DNA of 41,151 nucleotides from Crocinitomicaceae bacterium (GTDB taxonomy: Bacteria; Bacteroidota; Bacteroidia; Flavobacteriales_D; Crocinitomicaceae). Location: positions 2,829 to 43,979 of the forward strand of contig JAKVAQ010000038.1 of the NCBI GenBank assembly GCA_022447665.1. The letters run 5' to 3'. The position numbers and the translations under genes were made by a program. The notes beneath the pieces were generated by a model. It did not search any database. It was not told the origin of the DNA and was given only the letters and a program-made list of their open reading frames with translations. Shown here piece after piece: positions 34,323-41,151 of this stretch (the stretch's first letter is position 1; the number at the start of each line of letters is the position of its first letter).

Positions 34323-34407
34323 TACCCTTTTTCTGGTATTTTTAGCAAATCTCTAATCTTTACCATTTTTAGGGTATTGATAATTCTTTATACTGATTCT
34401 ACTTTTG
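34323..34407 (+). promoter_or_regulatory. Imelysin-operon promoter with two TACC-N8-GGTATT operators
   Basis: TACC (34323-34326), 8 nt, GGTATT (34335-34340) is site 1. TACC (34361-34364), 8 nt, GGTATT (34373-34378) is site 2, which overlaps ATTG (34376-34379) as the -33. A 20-bp spacer leads to TACTTTTG (34400-34407), an exact -7 element. Transcription is expected near 34414 and the first gene starts at 34436. The same arrangement recurs at 39149-39233. Confidence 0.6.
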
Positions 34408-34435: not shown

Positions 34436-35605
34436 ATGAAAAAATTATTCTTAGGAATTTTTGTTGTAACGGCCTTAGGAGCTGTTAGCTGTAAAAAGAA
34501 AAAAGTAAACAATCTTAAAGAAGAGTTTAGAGTAACCTACGCAGACATTGTACATGCTAGTTATGAGGATTCTTACAACAAAGCAGTTGAAATGCAAACT
34601 ACGATCAACTCTTTTGTAGATGCACCTACAGATGCGGGCTTTACGGCATGTAAAAACGCATGGTTAGCTGCACGTGAGCCCTACGGGCAAACAGAGGCTT
34701 ATCGATTTGCAAATGGACCTATTGACGATGCTAATGGACCAGAAGGTGCGTTAAACGCATGGCCATTAGATGAAGGATACATTGATTATGTAGACGGAAT
34801 GGCAATGTCCGGAATTGTTAATGATGGTACGACCACAATAGATGCAGCAACTTTAGCTGGACTAAATGAAGCAGGTGGAGAGAAAAACATATCTATCGGA
34901 TACCATGCTATTGAATTCCTACTTTGGGGACAAGATGATGCAAACACTGCGTTATTGACTCCTGGTCAAAGACCTTATACTGATTACTTGACAACAGGCG
35001 GTACAGCTTCGAACCAAGATCGAAGAGGTGATTATTTAAAAGTAGTAGCTCAAATCCTTGTGGACGATTTAAATTCATTAGTTCAAGAATGGAAAGAAGG
35101 CGGTTCTTACAGAACTTCATTTCTTGCTGAAGATATTGATGTTTCCATCGCCAATATTCTTACAGGAATGGGAGTGCTTTCTAAATCAGAATTAGCCGGT
35201 GAAAGAGTTTTCGTTGCATTGGACAACCAAGATCAAGAAGATGAGCATAGCTGTTTTGCCGATAACACGCACAGAGACATTATATTAAATTTTGTTGGTA
35301 TTCAAAACATCTATAACGGCGCTTACACAAGAGTTGACGGAACAGTAGTTTCAGGAACTTCCTTAGCAGACGTTATAGAAAAACAAGACAAGAAATTGAA
35401 AGAACAGCTAGATGCTGCATTTAGTGCGGCAAATGCAGCTGTCAACGCCATACCTGTTCCTTTTGACAATGCACTAACTTTAGAGACGGCAGGAGGATCG
35501 GGTGCAATAAACACTGCAGTAACTGAACTTCAAGCATTAGGTGATTTAATCGCTGAAATGGGAAGTGAATTAGGATTAACTATTAACACGGCACTGCCTG
35601 AATAA
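34436..35605 (+). CDS. Imelysin family lipoprotein (iron-associated)
   Basis: A 389-residue lipoprotein (MKKLFLGIFVVTALGAVSC, lipobox GAVSC). It carries the imelysin domain (Peptidase_M75-like, now regarded as an iron-uptake family including IrpA and EfeM/EfeO relatives). The family GxHxxE motif is intact as G155-Y-H157-A-I-E160 in GYHAIEFLLWGQDDANT. LLTPGQRPYTDYL follows, and RTSFLAEDIDVSIANILTGMG is another conserved stretch. It is expected in the outer envelope. It is the first gene of a three-gene operon with the di-heme oxidoreductase and a second imelysin, and lies under a strong promoter with operator-like repeats. Confidence 0.92.
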   Translation: MKKLFLGIFVVTALGAVSCKKKKVNNLKEEFRVTYADIVHASYEDSYNKAVEMQTTINSFVDAPTDAGFTACKNAWLAAREPYGQTEAYRFANGPIDDANGPEGALNAWPLDEGYIDYVDGMAMSGIVNDGTTTIDAATLAGLNEAGGEKNISIGYHAIEFLLWGQDDANTALLTPGQRPYTDYLTTGGTASNQDRRGDYLKVVAQILVDDLNSLVQEWKEGGSYRTSFLAEDIDVSIANILTGMGVLSKSELAGERVFVALDNQDQEDEHSCFADNTHRDIILNFVGIQNIYNGAYTRVDGTVVSGTSLADVIEKQDKKLKEQLDAAFSAANAAVNAIPVPFDNALTLETAGGSGAINTAVTELQALGDLIAEMGSELGLTINTALPE

Positions 35606-35608
35606 TAA

Positions 35609-36994
35609 ATGAGAAGTACTTGTTTATTTCTAATAGTACTATTTTTAGTTATAACCGCTTGCTCAAAAGGCAAGCGGTTTTCACGTGTAGATGAATTGAG
35701 TGGAGGTACAAACGGTACTATTTATGATCAAAGCTCCGCAGCTTTTTCTCAAATTATGCCTGCGGCAGATAATCAACAAGAACTTCTCTTTGCGGTTGGA
35801 AATAGCTTTTTTAACCAAAACTGGGTATCATCACCGGCTTCAACAACAGCTAGAGATGGTTTAGGACCCTTATTTAATGCTAAAAGTTGTAGCGCTTGTC
35901 ATTTTAAAGATGGACGTGGGATGCCCTATTTAGGTGCAGGTGATAATTCGAATGGCTTTTTAATTCGTTTGAGCGTTCCTGGTCAAGACGAATTTGGAGA
36001 AAATTTGCCTGAACCAACTTACGGTGGTCAGTTTAATGATTTAGCATTACCAATGGCCACTGATGAAGGTAATATCAATGTGACCTTCGAGTATATTACA
36101 GGCACTTATGACGATGGTACACCTTACGAATTGAGAAAACCTATCTACACATTAGATGATCTTCAATACGGACCTATGGACCCTAACGTGGAGATGTCTC
36201 CTCGAATTGGTCAACAAATGATAGGCTTAGGTCTATTGGAAGCCATTGATGAAAGTACCTTGCTCCGATTTGCTGATGAGAATGACGCCGACGGTGATGG
36301 TATTTCTGGTCGTCCTAATTATGTGTGGGACGTGACAATTGGAGCAACGTCTATTGGGCGATTTGGCTGGAAAGCTAATATGCCAAATTTATTGCAACAA
36401 ACTGCGGGTGCCTTTGTAGGTGATCTCGGAATAAAATCTTATTTATTTTCATCTGAAAATCACACTTCTAATCAATCTACACTTGATGCTTTACCAGATG
36501 GGGGTGTCGAAGAAATTGAGGTAGATGATTTAGGAAAGGTAGTCTTATACGTAAGTTCTTTGGCCGTTCCAGCTAGGAGAAATGCAAAAGACAAGTCGGT
36601 AAAAAAAGGTCACAACATATTTTATGACCTGGGCTGTGTTAAATGTCATATACCAACTATAGAAACAGGTAGCTCGCATGAGTTAACTTATTTAAATAAT
36701 CAAACCATACATCCTTACACAGATCTATTATTACATGATATGGGTGCAGAGTTAAGCGATGGAAGACCTGATTTCCTCGCAACAGGAAATGAATGGAGAA
36801 CTCAACCACTTTGGGGACTGGGACTAATTGAAACTGTTAACGGACATACCTTTTTGCTTCACGACGGAAGAGCGAGAAATATAGAAGAAGCAATTCTTTG
36901 GCACGGAGGTGAAGCTGAACAATCTAAAAATGATTTTAAAGCATTATCAGCTGAAGAAAGGGCTGATTTAATACTATTCTTAAACTCTTTATGA
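35609..36994 (+). CDS. Di-heme oxidoreductase family lipoprotein (DHOR/thiol oxidoreductase type)
   Basis: A 461-residue lipoprotein c-type cytochrome (signal MRSTCLFLIVLFLVITAC). Two heme-binding CxxCH motifs are present, C94-S-A-C97-H98 and C343-V-K-C346-H347, as in the di-heme oxidoreductase family (formerly putative thiol oxidoreductase). GPLFNAKSCSACHFKDGRGMP and PLWGLGLIETVNGHTFLLHDGRA are typical flanks. Family members occur in imelysin operons and are thought to handle electron transfer linked to iron. The substrate is unproven. The ATG lies 3 bp after the first imelysin's stop and overlaps the next gene by ATGA. Confidence 0.92.
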   Translation: MRSTCLFLIVLFLVITACSKGKRFSRVDELSGGTNGTIYDQSSAAFSQIMPAADNQQELLFAVGNSFFNQNWVSSPASTTARDGLGPLFNAKSCSACHFKDGRGMPYLGAGDNSNGFLIRLSVPGQDEFGENLPEPTYGGQFNDLALPMATDEGNINVTFEYITGTYDDGTPYELRKPIYTLDDLQYGPMDPNVEMSPRIGQQMIGLGLLEAIDESTLLRFADENDADGDGISGRPNYVWDVTIGATSIGRFGWKANMPNLLQQTAGAFVGDLGIKSYLFSSENHTSNQSTLDALPDGGVEEIEVDDLGKVVLYVSSLAVPARRNAKDKSVKKGHNIFYDLGCVKCHIPTIETGSSHELTYLNNQTIHPYTDLLLHDMGAELSDGRPDFLATGNEWRTQPLWGLGLIETVNGHTFLLHDGRARNIEEAILWHGGEAEQSKNDFKALSAEERADLILFLNSL

Positions 36995-38016
36995 TGAGAT
37001 ATCTTGCATTTGTACTTCTATTATTTGTTCTCGGAAGCTGTAAAAAGAATCGTTTTAAAAAGAGTGAATTCTTAGAAAGCCTATATGATTTAGAAATAAA
37101 ACCAGAAGTGGAAAATGGTGTATCGGCAATAGAGACTTTTAATACTAGCTGGGCAAATTATGTAGCATCCCCAACCCTAGCGAACTTGGACTTGGTTAAA
37201 ACAGATTTGCAATCTACAGTTCAAAAACTAGAAGAAATTTCAATATTCAATTTAGGAGATGTAAGTAAGACCTACGTTTATAATAGAATGTTTAAAACAA
37301 AGATTGATACCGCCTTATTGATTGATAATTATAATGAGGGAACTACTTTTACCTCTTCCGATGTTACAGGTTTCACAAACCCAACAAAAGGGATATATGC
37401 TCTGGAGTATCTGCTTTACTCCTCCTCTTTTAGAGACTCTACAGAAGTCGTAAAGTTTCAAAGTTTCTTTACTGCAATGCAGGAAAATCTTCTAACTACA
37501 TTTCAAGACTTTCAAACAAACTGGGAAACCTATCGAGGCACATTTATTGAACAAACGGATGAAGGCGTTGGAGGTTCATATAATATCGTGGTGAATCGTG
37601 TAGTTCATGTATTAGAAGATGTAACAAAGAAGAGAATTACAGAACCACTTGATTTAGAAGATCCAATACTAATGCCTGGCTTTAGAAGTAACCAAGGAGT
37701 TTTAAATGTTTTGGCTATTGTAAGTAAACTGAAAAAGGTTTATTATGGTAATGGTCTTTCTGGAGATTTTAATTCAATTTCTGTCAACGTTAGAAAGAAA
37801 AATAAAAAGCTTTCTGAATCTATAGATGAAAAATTTGAAATGGTTGATAACCTAGGACTGGCGTTAACTGAAAATGACACCTATTATTTTGAGACTAGTT
37901 CTGGTGCACTTGATGAATACAACACAGCACTTAAAGAACTTCTTACGCTTATAAAAATTGATGTCATCCAAGAACTAGGAATTATTTTAACTTTCGGTGA
38001 TACAGACGGAGATTAA
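36991..38016 (+). CDS. Second imelysin family lipoprotein
   Basis: A 341-residue lipoprotein (MMRYLAFVLLLFVLGSC). It has imelysin architecture: an N-terminal helical bundle with FNTSWANYVASPTLANLDLVK, NPTKGIYALEYLLYSS in the motif region, and FQDFQTNWETYRGTF later. The GxHxxE motif is changed to G-I-Y-A-L-E, with Tyr in place of His, so iron-binding may differ from the first copy. It starts by ATGA overlap with the di-heme gene (a second ATG at 36994 is also possible). It converges with the 38013 gene, whose TAA overlaps its own in TTAA. Confidence 0.88.
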   Translation: MMRYLAFVLLLFVLGSCKKNRFKKSEFLESLYDLEIKPEVENGVSAIETFNTSWANYVASPTLANLDLVKTDLQSTVQKLEEISIFNLGDVSKTYVYNRMFKTKIDTALLIDNYNEGTTFTSSDVTGFTNPTKGIYALEYLLYSSSFRDSTEVVKFQSFFTAMQENLLTTFQDFQTNWETYRGTFIEQTDEGVGGSYNIVVNRVVHVLEDVTKKRITEPLDLEDPILMPGFRSNQGVLNVLAIVSKLKKVYYGNGLSGDFNSISVNVRKKNKKLSESIDEKFEMVDNLGLALTENDTYYFETSSGALDEYNTALKELLTLIKIDVIQELGIILTFGDTDGD

Positions 38017-39086
38017 ATCCTCTCACGCTTTACTCTTCGTTTTACTGATTTATAATACTCGACCTCACGCGCATTAAATAAACCTCTTATTTTTTGCTTT
38101 CTATTTAAGTTTCTGTCTGTTTGCAAAAAATCAATTACTGCATGCTGCAAATCCTCTGACCACGCCTCGCGATTCTTCAATAGGTCATATAAGTATTGAA
38201 ATGATGTTGGGTCTTCTTGAACGTAAGAGAACATATCCATTATGGTGTTTTCTGCGCATGAATTCATTTGCCAAATTAGGTTAATCTCGAACCTAATATC
38301 ATCATCTCCCTGTTTGAAAATTGTATATATAGCTTTCTGAATATTCGTATCTAAAACTTCTTCTGCACTTAATTTGGGAAGTGTTCTCATGATCAAGCTA
38401 TTGTCAAGAGCAATTAGCTTATCTGCAAACATTTGCAAATCAGTCTCTTTTTTATACTTCATCAACGCGTATAGACTTCCTTGTTCTGAGTTAGAAGAAA
38501 TTAATTCATCTGGATTCTGAGAGTTCAATAATACAGATTTAGTATGGCTTGCCATCATCTTCTTCTTATCATGCGCCAAATGCCATAACCGCACCGAAGT
38601 ATACAAAGCACCTGGAATGTAGGACCCTTCAGGCATTAATGTTGTTGGTCCAGTTATACCATCAACTTCTTCATCTTCTGAAACATGAGTAGAGTCTACG
38701 TGGAACATCTCCTCTAAATAATCTACCGTATATTTCTTAATAACACTGAAGCTATCCTGCATAATCAAATCAAGCAAAACATATTCTCTCTTAGTAAAAG
38801 GCTCATGTTCTGTTTTGGTCAGTATCTCCTCGCCTGGCATTTCGTATTTCCAATAATTACCATCCAAGTCCCAGTAAATATGAATTTTAACTGGTAAACA
38901 TTCAGAGGTGTTACAAACAGGTGTAAATACATCTGCCCAATAATATGAAGGAATATTTTCCTTATTTCTACCTAGCTGAATTACATTCCCGTATTTATCC
39001 AATTCTATTTCAGTATTAGAGGCCAATTCATTCACTTCAAAAGCGAGTAAGAAAAATGAAAATAGTAGAGGAAAAAATTTGATCAT
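38013..39086 (-). CDS. Exported hypothetical protein
   Basis: A 357-residue protein with a hydrophobic N-terminal signal (MIKFFPLLFSFFLLAFEVNEL). Residues 30-110 contain SYYWADVFTPVCNTSECLPV and KIHIYWDLDGNYWKYEMPG, which look like a Cys-containing beta domain. Residues 180-340 are helical and repeat-like (HDKKKMMASHTKSVLLN, SLYALMKYKKETDLQMF, IQKAIYTIFKQGDD). It lies inside the iron/heme region but on the opposite strand. The gene start faces the operator-rich divergent region at 39134-39233. In Bacteroidota such proteins occur next to cytochrome or HmuY-type genes. The function is unknown. Confidence 0.75.
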   Translation of the reverse strand: MIKFFPLLFSFFLLAFEVNELASNTEIELDKYGNVIQLGRNKENIPSYYWADVFTPVCNTSECLPVKIHIYWDLDGNYWKYEMPGEEILTKTEHEPFTKREYVLLDLIMQDSFSVIKKYTVDYLEEMFHVDSTHVSEDEEVDGITGPTTLMPEGSYIPGALYTSVRLWHLAHDKKKMMASHTKSVLLNSQNPDELISSNSEQGSLYALMKYKKETDLQMFADKLIALDNSLIMRTLPKLSAEEVLDTNIQKAIYTIFKQGDDDIRFEINLIWQMNSCAENTIMDMFSYVQEDPTSFQYLYDLLKNREAWSEDLQHAVIDFLQTDRNLNRKQKIRGLFNAREVEYYKSVKRRVKRERI

Positions 39087-39133
39087 AAGGACGAAAATAC
39101 AGAACGTATTTTTTTTTGATGTAACCCAAAAAG

Positions 39134-39233
39134 GGTATTTTAATAAAATACCAGAAATGTGGTATTTTAAGTGTTTACAGGGCTTATACCACGTTTTAGG
39201 TATTCCATATTAACAACTCACCATGTAGATTTG
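39134..39233 (+). promoter_or_regulatory. DUF6607/HmuY promoter with palindrome and two TACC-N8-GGTATT operators
   Basis: Site 1 is TACC (39149-39152), N8, GGTATT (39161-39166). Site 2 is TACC (39187-39190), N8, GGTATT (39199-39204). A 21-bp gap follows, then TAGATTTG (39226-39233), an exact -7 match. A perfect 9-bp-arm palindrome GGTATTTTAATAAAATACC (39134-39152) supplies the site 1 TACC. The layout copies that of 34323-34407. The divergent gene at 39086 may also be affected. Confidence 0.6.
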
Positions 39234-39249: not shown

Positions 39250-40173
39250 ATGAATCGAATTGAAATTTTATTATCACTATTCGCATTATGCGGTAGTCTT
39301 TTTTCTATAGCTCAAGACAATAAAAAAGAGTTAGACAAAGAATCTATTAAATCTATGTGTGGTTGTTTTGAAATCGATTTTGATTATACCGAAACATTTA
39401 GTCCTGACACCAATTATCAATTCCACAAGGATTATCACGCTCATGCTGACGCGGAATATGCGTTTGTAGTTGAAGAGGATGAAAACCATATCGTCATTCA
39501 ACATCTACTAATTATTGGAGATGAGATGATTATCAAGCATTGGCGTCAAGATTGGATTTACGAAAACACTGAGTTTTGGGAATACGATAATGACTTTGCC
39601 TGGAAATACGTGAAGAAATCAGAGGAGGAAGTTACAGGACAGTGGACGCAAAAAGTATATCAAGTAGACGACAGTCCTAGATACCAAGGTTCAGGAACGT
39701 GGGTACATGTTGATGGAAAACATTATTGGGAAAGTACTTCTTACTCTCCTTTACCTAGAAGAGAATATTCGAAAAGAAGCGATTATAACATACTAGTTCG
39801 TGGGAATAGACACGAAGTAACCGATTATGGATGGCTTCATGAACAAGACAATTCTAAACTACTACGTAATGAAAATGGAGATAAGATATTAGCTCAAGAA
39901 AAAGGATACAACAAGTACTATTCTCAACCAGTATCGAAATGTCAAGCCGCTATTGAATGGTGGGAGAAAAATGAAGAATTCTGGGCGATGGTAAGAGGTC
40001 AATGGGATGTGATATTCTCAGACAAAAAAGATCTAACAATGAAAAAATTTGTAGAAGAGAAAATGATGTGGGAAGAAGTTTTCGGCCTAGGGTCACAATT
40101 TAGTGAAGGAGAAATCAAGAAAAAAGCTGCTAAAGCAGGAGTGATCGATGTTATCGATAAGTTCACTGTTTAG
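39250..40173 (+). CDS. DUF6607 family secreted protein
   Basis: A 307-residue protein with signal peptide MNRIEILLSLFALCGSLFSIAQ. The mature N-terminus has the family's ESIKSMCGCFEIDFDYTETF (two close Cys). DWIYENTEFWEYDNDFAWKYV and GQWTQKVYQVDDSPRYQGSGTWVHV are rich in Trp and Tyr, and a WWEKNEEFWAMVRGQWDVIF segment lies near the C-terminus. DUF6607 proteins are uncharacterised, but I recall them beside TonB receptors and HmuY-type heme proteins. It starts with ATG 17 bp after an exact -7 element and is followed by the HmuY-like gene. Confidence 0.82.
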   Translation: MNRIEILLSLFALCGSLFSIAQDNKKELDKESIKSMCGCFEIDFDYTETFSPDTNYQFHKDYHAHADAEYAFVVEEDENHIVIQHLLIIGDEMIIKHWRQDWIYENTEFWEYDNDFAWKYVKKSEEEVTGQWTQKVYQVDDSPRYQGSGTWVHVDGKHYWESTSYSPLPRREYSKRSDYNILVRGNRHEVTDYGWLHEQDNSKLLRNENGDKILAQEKGYNKYYSQPVSKCQAAIEWWEKNEEFWAMVRGQWDVIFSDKKDLTMKKFVEEKMMWEEVFGLGSQFSEGEIKKKAAKAGVIDVIDKFTV

Positions 40174-40252: not shown

Positions 40253-41151
40253 ATGAAAAAACTATTACTTTCTAGTTCAATTATGCTAGCCTTTTTTGGA
40301 GCTAACGCTCAAGAGGCCGACTCGGTTTCATTGGAACCTGGGTATATCAAACAATCATATTACAGCATTGAAAACGGCGAAATGGCATCCGTAACTTTAG
40401 CTTCATGGGATCTTGCTTTTGATGTGAGTTCATGGGGATCTGCCGTTAGAATTAACGCTACAAAGTACGAACTTTATCTTTCAACTACAGATACAGCAGA
40501 TTTCGGTTCACCACTCGATACCGCAGGAATAGATGGATGGGATTCTTACTTGAACAGTGATGTTTCATGGGGTTCTGGAGCATTTAATGGCCCTGCCGAT
40601 GGCGGTGACGCAACGGATTTAGGCTGGGGACATTACAGTACGATTACCCACCACACTGTTGGGGACAGAGTTTTTGTACTTAAAGACATTGCGTCGAACG
40701 AATGCCATAAAATTTGGATACAGTTATTGGCTTCTGGAACATTTACATTTAGAGTTGCCTCATTAGACAATACCGATGATGATGTTTACACTGTTGTGAA
40801 GAGCGATTTTACTAACAAGAATTTCGGCTATTTTTATTTAACTGCTGGAACAACATTAGATCTAGAGCCAAATAACGAAACTTGGGATATTATTTTCACT
40901 AAATATGTTACAGAATTAGCTCCAGGAGTATCCTATGGTGTAACAGGAGTCCTATCAAATGCTTCAGTGATGACGCAAAAAATTGACGATCTACCTGTTG
41001 CTGACGCTAATTACGTTGAAGGAGCATCCATTGACGAAATCAATGTAATTGGTTACGACTGGAAGTACTTTGATATGGGGTCTTTCAGTTTTATGTTAGA
41101 AGATTCAACTTCATTCTTTGTTGAGTCATTTTCAGGAGATGTATGGAAACT
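40253..41151 (+). CDS. HmuY-like heme-binding protein, 3'-truncated by window edge
   Basis: The frame is open from ATG 40253 to the end of the window, about 299 codons. The signal peptide is MKKLLLSSSIMLAFFGANAQ. The protein resembles HmuY-family hemophores, with the phrases ASWDLAFDVSSWGSAVRIN and NETWDIIFTKYV, then SYGVTGVLSNASVMTQKIDD. Each half begins with a tryptophan-rich strand, and the sequence continues beyond the window, so it may carry a T9SS C-terminus. It is expected to be surface-exposed or released and to take up heme. It follows the terminator at 40191 by 37 bp and probably depends on readthrough or its own promoter. Confidence 0.82.
   Translation, partial: MKKLLLSSSIMLAFFGANAQEADSVSLEPGYIKQSYYSIENGEMASVTLASWDLAFDVSSWGSAVRINATKYELYLSTTDTADFGSPLDTAGIDGWDSYLNSDVSWGSGAFNGPADGGDATDLGWGHYSTITHHTVGDRVFVLKDIASNECHKIWIQLLASGTFTFRVASLDNTDDDVYTVVKSDFTNKNFGYFYLTAGTTLDLEPNNETWDIIFTKYVTELAPGVSYGVTGVLSNASVMTQKIDDLPVADANYVEGASIDEINVIGYDWKYFDMGSFSFMLEDSTSFFVESFSGDVWK

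Follow-up and report, generated by a model that had tools for sequence, protein, structure and literature searches.

Paired TACC-N8-GGTATT sites that look like activator sites for genes of iron and heme uptake in a branch of the Flavobacteriales

Paired-site promoters in the window and in its genome

The window (the whole stretch of 41,151 nucleotides analyzed here) lies on contig C32 of a 4.06-Mb draft genome (G000) of a Crocinitomicaceae bacterium. It contains a presumed operon that begins with an imelysin gene (Peptidase_M75 by Pfam, 34436–35605), followed by a di-haem oxidoreductase gene (DHOR, 35609–36994) and a second imelysin gene (Peptidase_M75 by Pfam, 36991–38016); further downstream are a DUF6607 gene (by Pfam, 39250–40173) and a gene for an HmuY-like protein (40253–41149, extending past the window end), all on the + strand. 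The Pfam scan returned no match for the HmuY-like protein, which is 48% identical to protein L177_7 and 25% identical (E = 1e-16) to the product of a Pfam-HmuY gene elsewhere in its own genome. The gene of a 357-residue protein without a Pfam match (38013–39086) reads divergently from the operator region of DUF6607, which it might share.

The initial annotation had described one and the same layout ahead of the imelysin and DUF6607 genes, with two TACC-N8-GGTATT sites paired at 38 bp and 21 bases (a 27-bp distance) separating the second GGTATT from a TAnnTTTG element; the four sites, at 34323, 34361, 39149 and 39187, and all of these distances were confirmed in the sequence. In the imelysin promoter the distal site (34323–34340, + strand) lies 38 bp 5′ of the proximal site (34361–34378, +), which forms an exact composite, TACC-N8-GGTATT-N21-TAnnTTTG, with the −7 box TACTTTTG (34400–34407, +). 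In the DUF6607 promoter the distal site (39149–39166, +) is a complete AATACC-N8-GGTATT palindrome, the proximal site (39187–39204, +) is again part of an exact composite with the −7 box TAGATTTG (39226–39233, +), and a third, degenerate site with one mismatch, TAACCCAAAAAGGGTA, is present at 39122–39137 (+). The TAnnTTTG consensus is placed at −12 to −5 in the excerpt of PMC9723704 that describes it; as the −7 box is set accordingly, the proximal palindrome is centered at about −43.5, and the distal site of the imelysin promoter at about −81.5. The window holds five matches to TACC-N8-GGTATT, from four sites of which one is palindromic, where 0.06 would be expected, and none of 100 shuffled windows reached five. 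The chance rate of once per 65 kb that accompanied the original description holds for the eight bases of TACC/GGTA, but not for TACC-N8-GGTATT, which fixes ten.

Across the source genome, TACC-N8-GGTATT gives 25 matches at 20 places, 12 of them outside the ORFs kept and eight within genes, and the reversed pattern gives four matches. The composite has six exact matches, including the two window promoters and others upstream of a DUF4856 gene, of a hemerythrin-like gene that adjoins the Pfam-HmuY gene, and of a gene without a Pfam match that is followed by TauE. A seventh composite has one mismatch and is followed by a gene with no Pfam match and a methyltransferase gene, and an eighth, with two mismatches, falls within a gene; the reversed composite yields no exact match and five at up to two mismatches. 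On the minus strand of contig C11 (G000:C11:51013-51059; L027/L248), an exact composite precedes a 40-codon ORF with a GTG start, seven cysteines and many lysines; this ORF starts four nucleotides after the −7 box, so is leaderless if real, and its product is a candidate small metal-binding protein. Two further loci carry the palindrome. At L011 (G000:C16:48940), a divergent Fe-S_biosyn gene and a gene whose Sdh_cyt match is sub-threshold flank the full TACC palindrome, and two Fur-box-like sequences were noted there by eye; this arrangement hints that iron-using genes are also under control. At L016 (G000:C29:43909), the gene behind the TACC palindrome encodes a TonB-dependent receptor, and TAnnTTTG is about 14 bp more distant (by eye).

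Spread, register and predicted targets of the composite promoter

Recurrence in related genomes, proposed in the initial annotation as a check, is evident at two levels. Among 59 genomes (the source genome and 58 relatives), the composite with GGTANT is present in 45, with no match for the reversed pattern, and when the gap was left free 82 of the 124 matches fell at exactly N21 (14 matches for the runner-up length). At the order level (245 genomes of at least 90% completeness), the GGTATT composite is found in 137 genomes and a reversed-control match in three. Any composite match is present in nine of 28 named genomes; the two Brumimicrobium genomes have composites before FeoA, DUF4856 and HmuY-like genes, the sole such case seen among the 28. 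Roseivirga, Reichenbachiella, Aquimarina and other named genomes also contain composite look-alikes (7 of the 26 that lack the regulator orthologue described below); these were set aside, as their downstream genes, judged by eye from the first residues, did not look iron-linked. Three Roseivirga species (L155–L157) share a conserved TACC-N8-GGTAT, one base nearer to TAnnTTTG, before a gene of ~150–160 codons, and this site probably serves another regulator.

Conservation before DUF6607 fails as a general rule, with the composite upstream of one of 59 named DUF6607 loci (L063) and any exact site within 300 bp at two of the 59; the operator tracks lineage rather than gene. The nearest named relatives of the window protein, L063 and L064, are both 72% identical to it; L063 has the same composite and a second site 38 bp upstream, and an exact site within 300 bp is absent from L064.

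A set of 140 distinct composite promoters was assembled, comprising 75 from 80 neighborhoods (relatives and source genome), 63 from 60 short regions picked among the matches listed in the order-level scan, and the two of the window. Eight of the 80 rows of the first set lie within a predicted ORF, and six of these ORFs are shorter than 100 aa. The first genes were assigned by BLAST to reference members, and 112 of the 140 belong to nine recurrent families tied to iron or heme by name or by neighbors: DUF4856 (39), a 401-aa porin-like protein (14), HmuY-like (12), imelysin (11), FeoB (9), hemerythrin-like (9), TonB receptor (9), FeoA (6) and DUF6607 (3). Outside the nine are one methyltransferase match and 27 unclassified genes, L210 (a FeoA promoter missed by the longest-ORF rule) being counted with the latter. 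By name, 47 are linked to iron or heme (FeoA, FeoB, TonB, imelysin and HmuY-like), and DUF4856 is linked through its neighbors, with an imelysin-cluster gene at 23 and a TonB receptor of a single cluster at 22 of 24 loci in the first set. The names DUF4856, FeoA, TonB, hemerythrin, Peptidase_M75 and DUF6607 are based on Pfam, FeoB and "porin-like" (which has no Pfam match) on reading of the sequences, and "HmuY-like" denotes a weak similarity. This concentration supports the earlier suggestion of an iron/heme operator, through which an iron signal would presumably act.

Two loci add detail on the genes themselves. The HmuY-like protein of L212:4713-5960 bears a sorting tail of the type IX secretion system (Por_Secre_tail), as if it were a secreted hemophore. 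At L185:6063-10180, the composite is followed by genes for the 401-aa porin-like protein, a Rieske protein, an imelysin-cluster protein and a C16-cluster protein (DHOR-like by eye); Rieske, cytochrome and imelysin-like genes are described as MliR-dependent in Bizionia in an excerpt of PMC9478572.

Base frequencies over the 140 sites reveal an A/T-rich center and outer A and T (AATACC...GGTATTG), TACC and GGTA themselves being fixed by the search pattern, and 119 of the 140 sites end in GGTATTG, which places a TTG at about −35 to −33. An exact second site 37 or 38 bp upstream is present in ten promoters (six HmuY-like, two DUF6607, the window imelysin and one unclassified), and at up to one mismatch and all distances 26 upstream sites are found compared with four for the reversed control. 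On these counts the pair described in the initial annotation is a real sub-type (10/140), but the core of the arrangement is the single promoter-proximal site at fixed register. The 38-bp pair spacing does not equal an integral number of helical turns.

Fur boxes and an orphan NarL/FixJ-type response regulator as candidate factor

A second element is superimposed on many of these promoters. The Fur box of Riemerella anatipestifer is ATTTAGAATTATTCTAAAT, and Fur shifted promoter fragments with putative boxes in EMSA experiments excerpted from PMC5609570. With up to three mismatches, a box of this type is present in 86 of the 140 promoters versus 28 of 2800 mononucleotide shuffles; among control strings, the reversed one matched 0, the scrambled one 3 and the rotated one, which retains 12 of 17 positions in order, 13 of the 140. 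The boxes lie over the start site (45), abut the TACC site on its upstream side (23), or fall in the spacer (14) or elsewhere (4). The composite promoters of the source genome are poor in Fur boxes, the best having four mismatches. In the imelysin promoter of the window, the degenerate Fur-box-like TTTATACTGATTCTACT (34387–34403, +; four mismatches) is weak alone and occupies one of the three preferred positions, and the best TTTAGAATNATTCTAAA-like Fur palindromes, with four (imelysin) and five (DUF6607) mismatches, are too divergent to be counted at either window promoter. The view that the TACC motif is not the classical Fur box is upheld. The Fur box is a separate element, which also occurs before the regulator gene described below and differs from the TACC site itself.

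The geometry of the sites pointed to the NarL/FixJ family, because TACCCCTAAAGGGGTA, an engineered site for E. coli NarL, fits the motif of the window. This published 7-2-7 probe has the form TACC-N8-GGTA, and the NarL-activated napF and yeaR promoters have 7-2-7 sites at −40 to −49 and −38 to −47 (excerpt of PMC4549865). The sites described here have the same form, with inverted heptamers 2 bp apart and TACC...GGTA ends, the ends being fixed by the search pattern itself. The most likely factor is an orphan NarL/FixJ response regulator encoded at G000:C23:9691-10353, on a different contig from the window, as befits the original remark that the factor is not in the window. Response_reg (PF00072) and GerE (PF00196) domains score above cut-off in the own-genome regulator and in the L235 protein, and the solved-structure relatives of the candidate include VraR, DevR and NarL. 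Counting the candidate, the source genome has five NarL-type matches with E values of at most 1e-20.

An orthologue (at least 200 bits) is present in 56 of the 59 genomes, plus a fragment in G031; G051 and G057 contain only distant paralogues, and lack the motif too. At the order level the orthologue is found in 231 of 245 genomes, and the motif in 134 of these 231 versus 3 of the 14 without it (Fisher p = 0.011, a value that ignores kinship). Draft gaps are possible in the three exceptions, G118, G209 and G219, and G209 also has a reversed-control match. Among the 28 named genomes the orthologue is restricted to two, both Brumimicrobium, and all six genomes of family f13 lack both regulator and motif. 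Family f9 has the regulator in 50 of 51 genomes and the exact composite in 5 of 51 (rows counted by eye), a pattern that the proposed circuit leaves unexplained.

Reading by eye of 268 neighbor proteins (70–320 aa, within 4 kb of composites) led to the finding that the regulator gene is immediately followed by feoA under a composite promoter in G048 and G218. In G055, G229 and G230, a TonB receptor gene with a composite promoter comes one gene on from the regulator gene. This adjacency came out of a search open to any regulator, is limited to two genera within family f3 and amounts to two independent cases at most; in the loci read for two f3 genomes of g25 (G037 and G223) the regulator is not adjacent to a composite, and in the loci read for other families no composite was noted next to it. 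A Fur box with up to three mismatches lies within 170 bp upstream of 55 of 68 regulator orthologues, compared with 11 of 236 other genes of those loci (orthologues removed via a sequence motif; for some of the 236 the intergenic stretch may be a shared one) and with 11 of 1360 shuffles. The own-genome gene has such a box with three mismatches, and TAnnTTTG starts 8–18 bp before the box in 33 of the 55 promoters. No exact TACC site was found upstream of any of the 68 orthologues, so no autoregulation is seen.

Three cysteines, in the contexts KKxC, FxC and SCEP (positions 104, 124 and 148 of the own protein), are kept in 69, 69 and 68 of 69 orthologues and in 3, 3 and 0 of 30 paralogues, 21 of which have a gap at the third position. 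In 49 orthologues, D53, T80 and K101/K102 (equivalence via the VraR alignment) are 98–100% conserved, and in at least 90% Ala replaces the first acid of the acidic pair, giving AD instead of DD. No histidine kinase was found among the eight Pfam-scanned neighbors of the own-genome gene, three of which have no match at all. A tentative idea, less likely than not to hold, is that through these cysteines the orphan protein directly senses iron, redox state or an Fe-S cluster; a receiver-domain protein would then have become a metalloregulator that activates iron uptake, forming the positive arm of a Fur feed-forward loop in these families.

Alternative factors, the proposed circuit and its place among known systems

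The strongest competing proposal, still unlikely, is that the sites are bound by another NarL/LuxR-type paralogue, or by a factor of another family with equal spread, such as an XRE protein. Each genome has several NarL-type paralogues, the order-level co-occurrence is confounded by kinship, the factor groups compared across genomes are MliR, HTH_Crp_2 and this NarL-type group, and in G005 a 180-aa LuxR-type protein (L187_3) is encoded divergently from a composite. Against this, no other NarL-type orthologue was seen beside composites in more than one genome of the neighbor list (by eye), and the combination of wide presence, adjacency and Fur box is found for the three-cysteine orthologue alone.

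Somewhat less probable is that the factor represses, its dimer covering the −33 region until iron or heme runs short. The operator does overlap −33, and since 119 of the 140 sites end in GGTATTG a repressor too would be held in register by the −33/−7 spacing. The sharp N21 register speaks for activation, however, and iron repression could already come from Fur; moreover, 23 of the 86 Fur boxes abut the site far upstream, where they would get in the way of an activator more than of RNA polymerase, which favors an activator over a repressor.

MliR, the MerR-like iron activator of Bizionia argentinensis, is a poor prospect as the main binder. It is likewise a positive regulator of the same kinds of gene, deletion of mliR lowering TonB receptor, imelysin-like, Rieske/cytochrome and FeoB-associated transcripts, and the excerpt of PMC9478572 names no operator for it. 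The source genome encodes a 106-aa homologue, with no exact TACC site in the surrounding 3.2 kb. It was rejected because, unlike the motif, it is near-universal, being present in 58 of the 59 genomes, including the motif-less G051 and G057. No composites were seen before iron genes in Flavobacteriaceae, to which Bizionia belongs, among the 28 named genomes. Most MerR proteins, moreover, use promoters with a long 19-bp spacer (excerpt of PMC9478572), whereas here the site lies upstream of −33.

CRP/FNR proteins were set aside because the sole HTH_Crp_2 match of the source genome sits in a sulfur (rhodanese) locus, where 6.5 kb of surrounding sequence contain no exact TACC site. CRP-type genes do lie near composites in two relatives (L204_9 and L206_3, in G058 and G050), and the comparison of distributions covered the HTH_Crp_2 group. 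IutR of Synechocystis, likewise an activator of iron uptake, belongs to the AraC family (excerpt of PMC11221513) and was ruled out as a relative of the candidate. Overall, MliR, CRP and Fur itself fit worse than the orphan NarL-type regulator. Chance or sequence composition can be dismissed: although the reversed pattern is not always silent (3/245 genomes), its absence from 59 genomes of which 45 have the motif, the 137 of 245 genomes with matches and the clustering before iron-linked genes agree with the initial annotation that the arrangement is not accidental.

We therefore return to the orphan regulator and propose, with a probability of roughly 0.7, that the sites are operators of a NarL/FixJ activator, likely the C23 regulator, which is repressed by Fur and turns on iron and heme uptake; binding, activation and sensing by this protein are what we infer from the genomes. 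Each TACC-N8-GGTATT would be a 7-2-7-type operator for a dimer of the activator, with its LuxR-type HTH. The proximal dimer, at about −43.5, would touch the −33 region and may recruit RNA polymerase to the TAnnTTTG promoter, and a second dimer 37–38 bp upstream may strengthen promoters of the HmuY, DUF6607 and imelysin type. Fur, whose boxes are found before the regulator gene and, in relatives, many targets, would repress both. With Fur placed over regulator and targets, iron shortage would thus open a feed-forward loop, in which release of Fur allows the regulator to be made and the uptake genes to be switched on.

Both the site type and the protein family are known already. The sites resemble E. 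coli NarL/NarP operators in their 16-bp inverted repeat, TACC-N8-GGTA, and activating position in the −40s (excerpt of PMC4549865), and the candidate resembles NarL/NarP as a REC-GerE response regulator predicted to bind as a dimer. Unlike NarL/NarP, which serve nitrate respiration, the system described here has an iron/heme-linked regulon and a Bacteroidota promoter, no kinase among the eight scanned neighbors, and three near-invariant cysteines. Searches of open-licence PubMed Central papers turned up no orphan regulator of the NarL type that activates iron uptake under Fur control and bears a three-cysteine signature.

Control of iron beyond Fur seems thinly covered in the literature consulted on Bacteroidota. 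The paired sites look like activator sites for genes of iron and heme uptake in a branch of the Flavobacteriales. For a group of families the analysis yields a predicted positive regulator with its operator, promoter geometry and list of targets, in a simple scheme that puts Fur above an activator and the activator above the uptake genes. DUF4856, DUF6607, the 401-aa porin-like protein and the cysteine-rich peptide of 40 aa thereby gain a place in a predicted iron regulon, where their roles can be tested.
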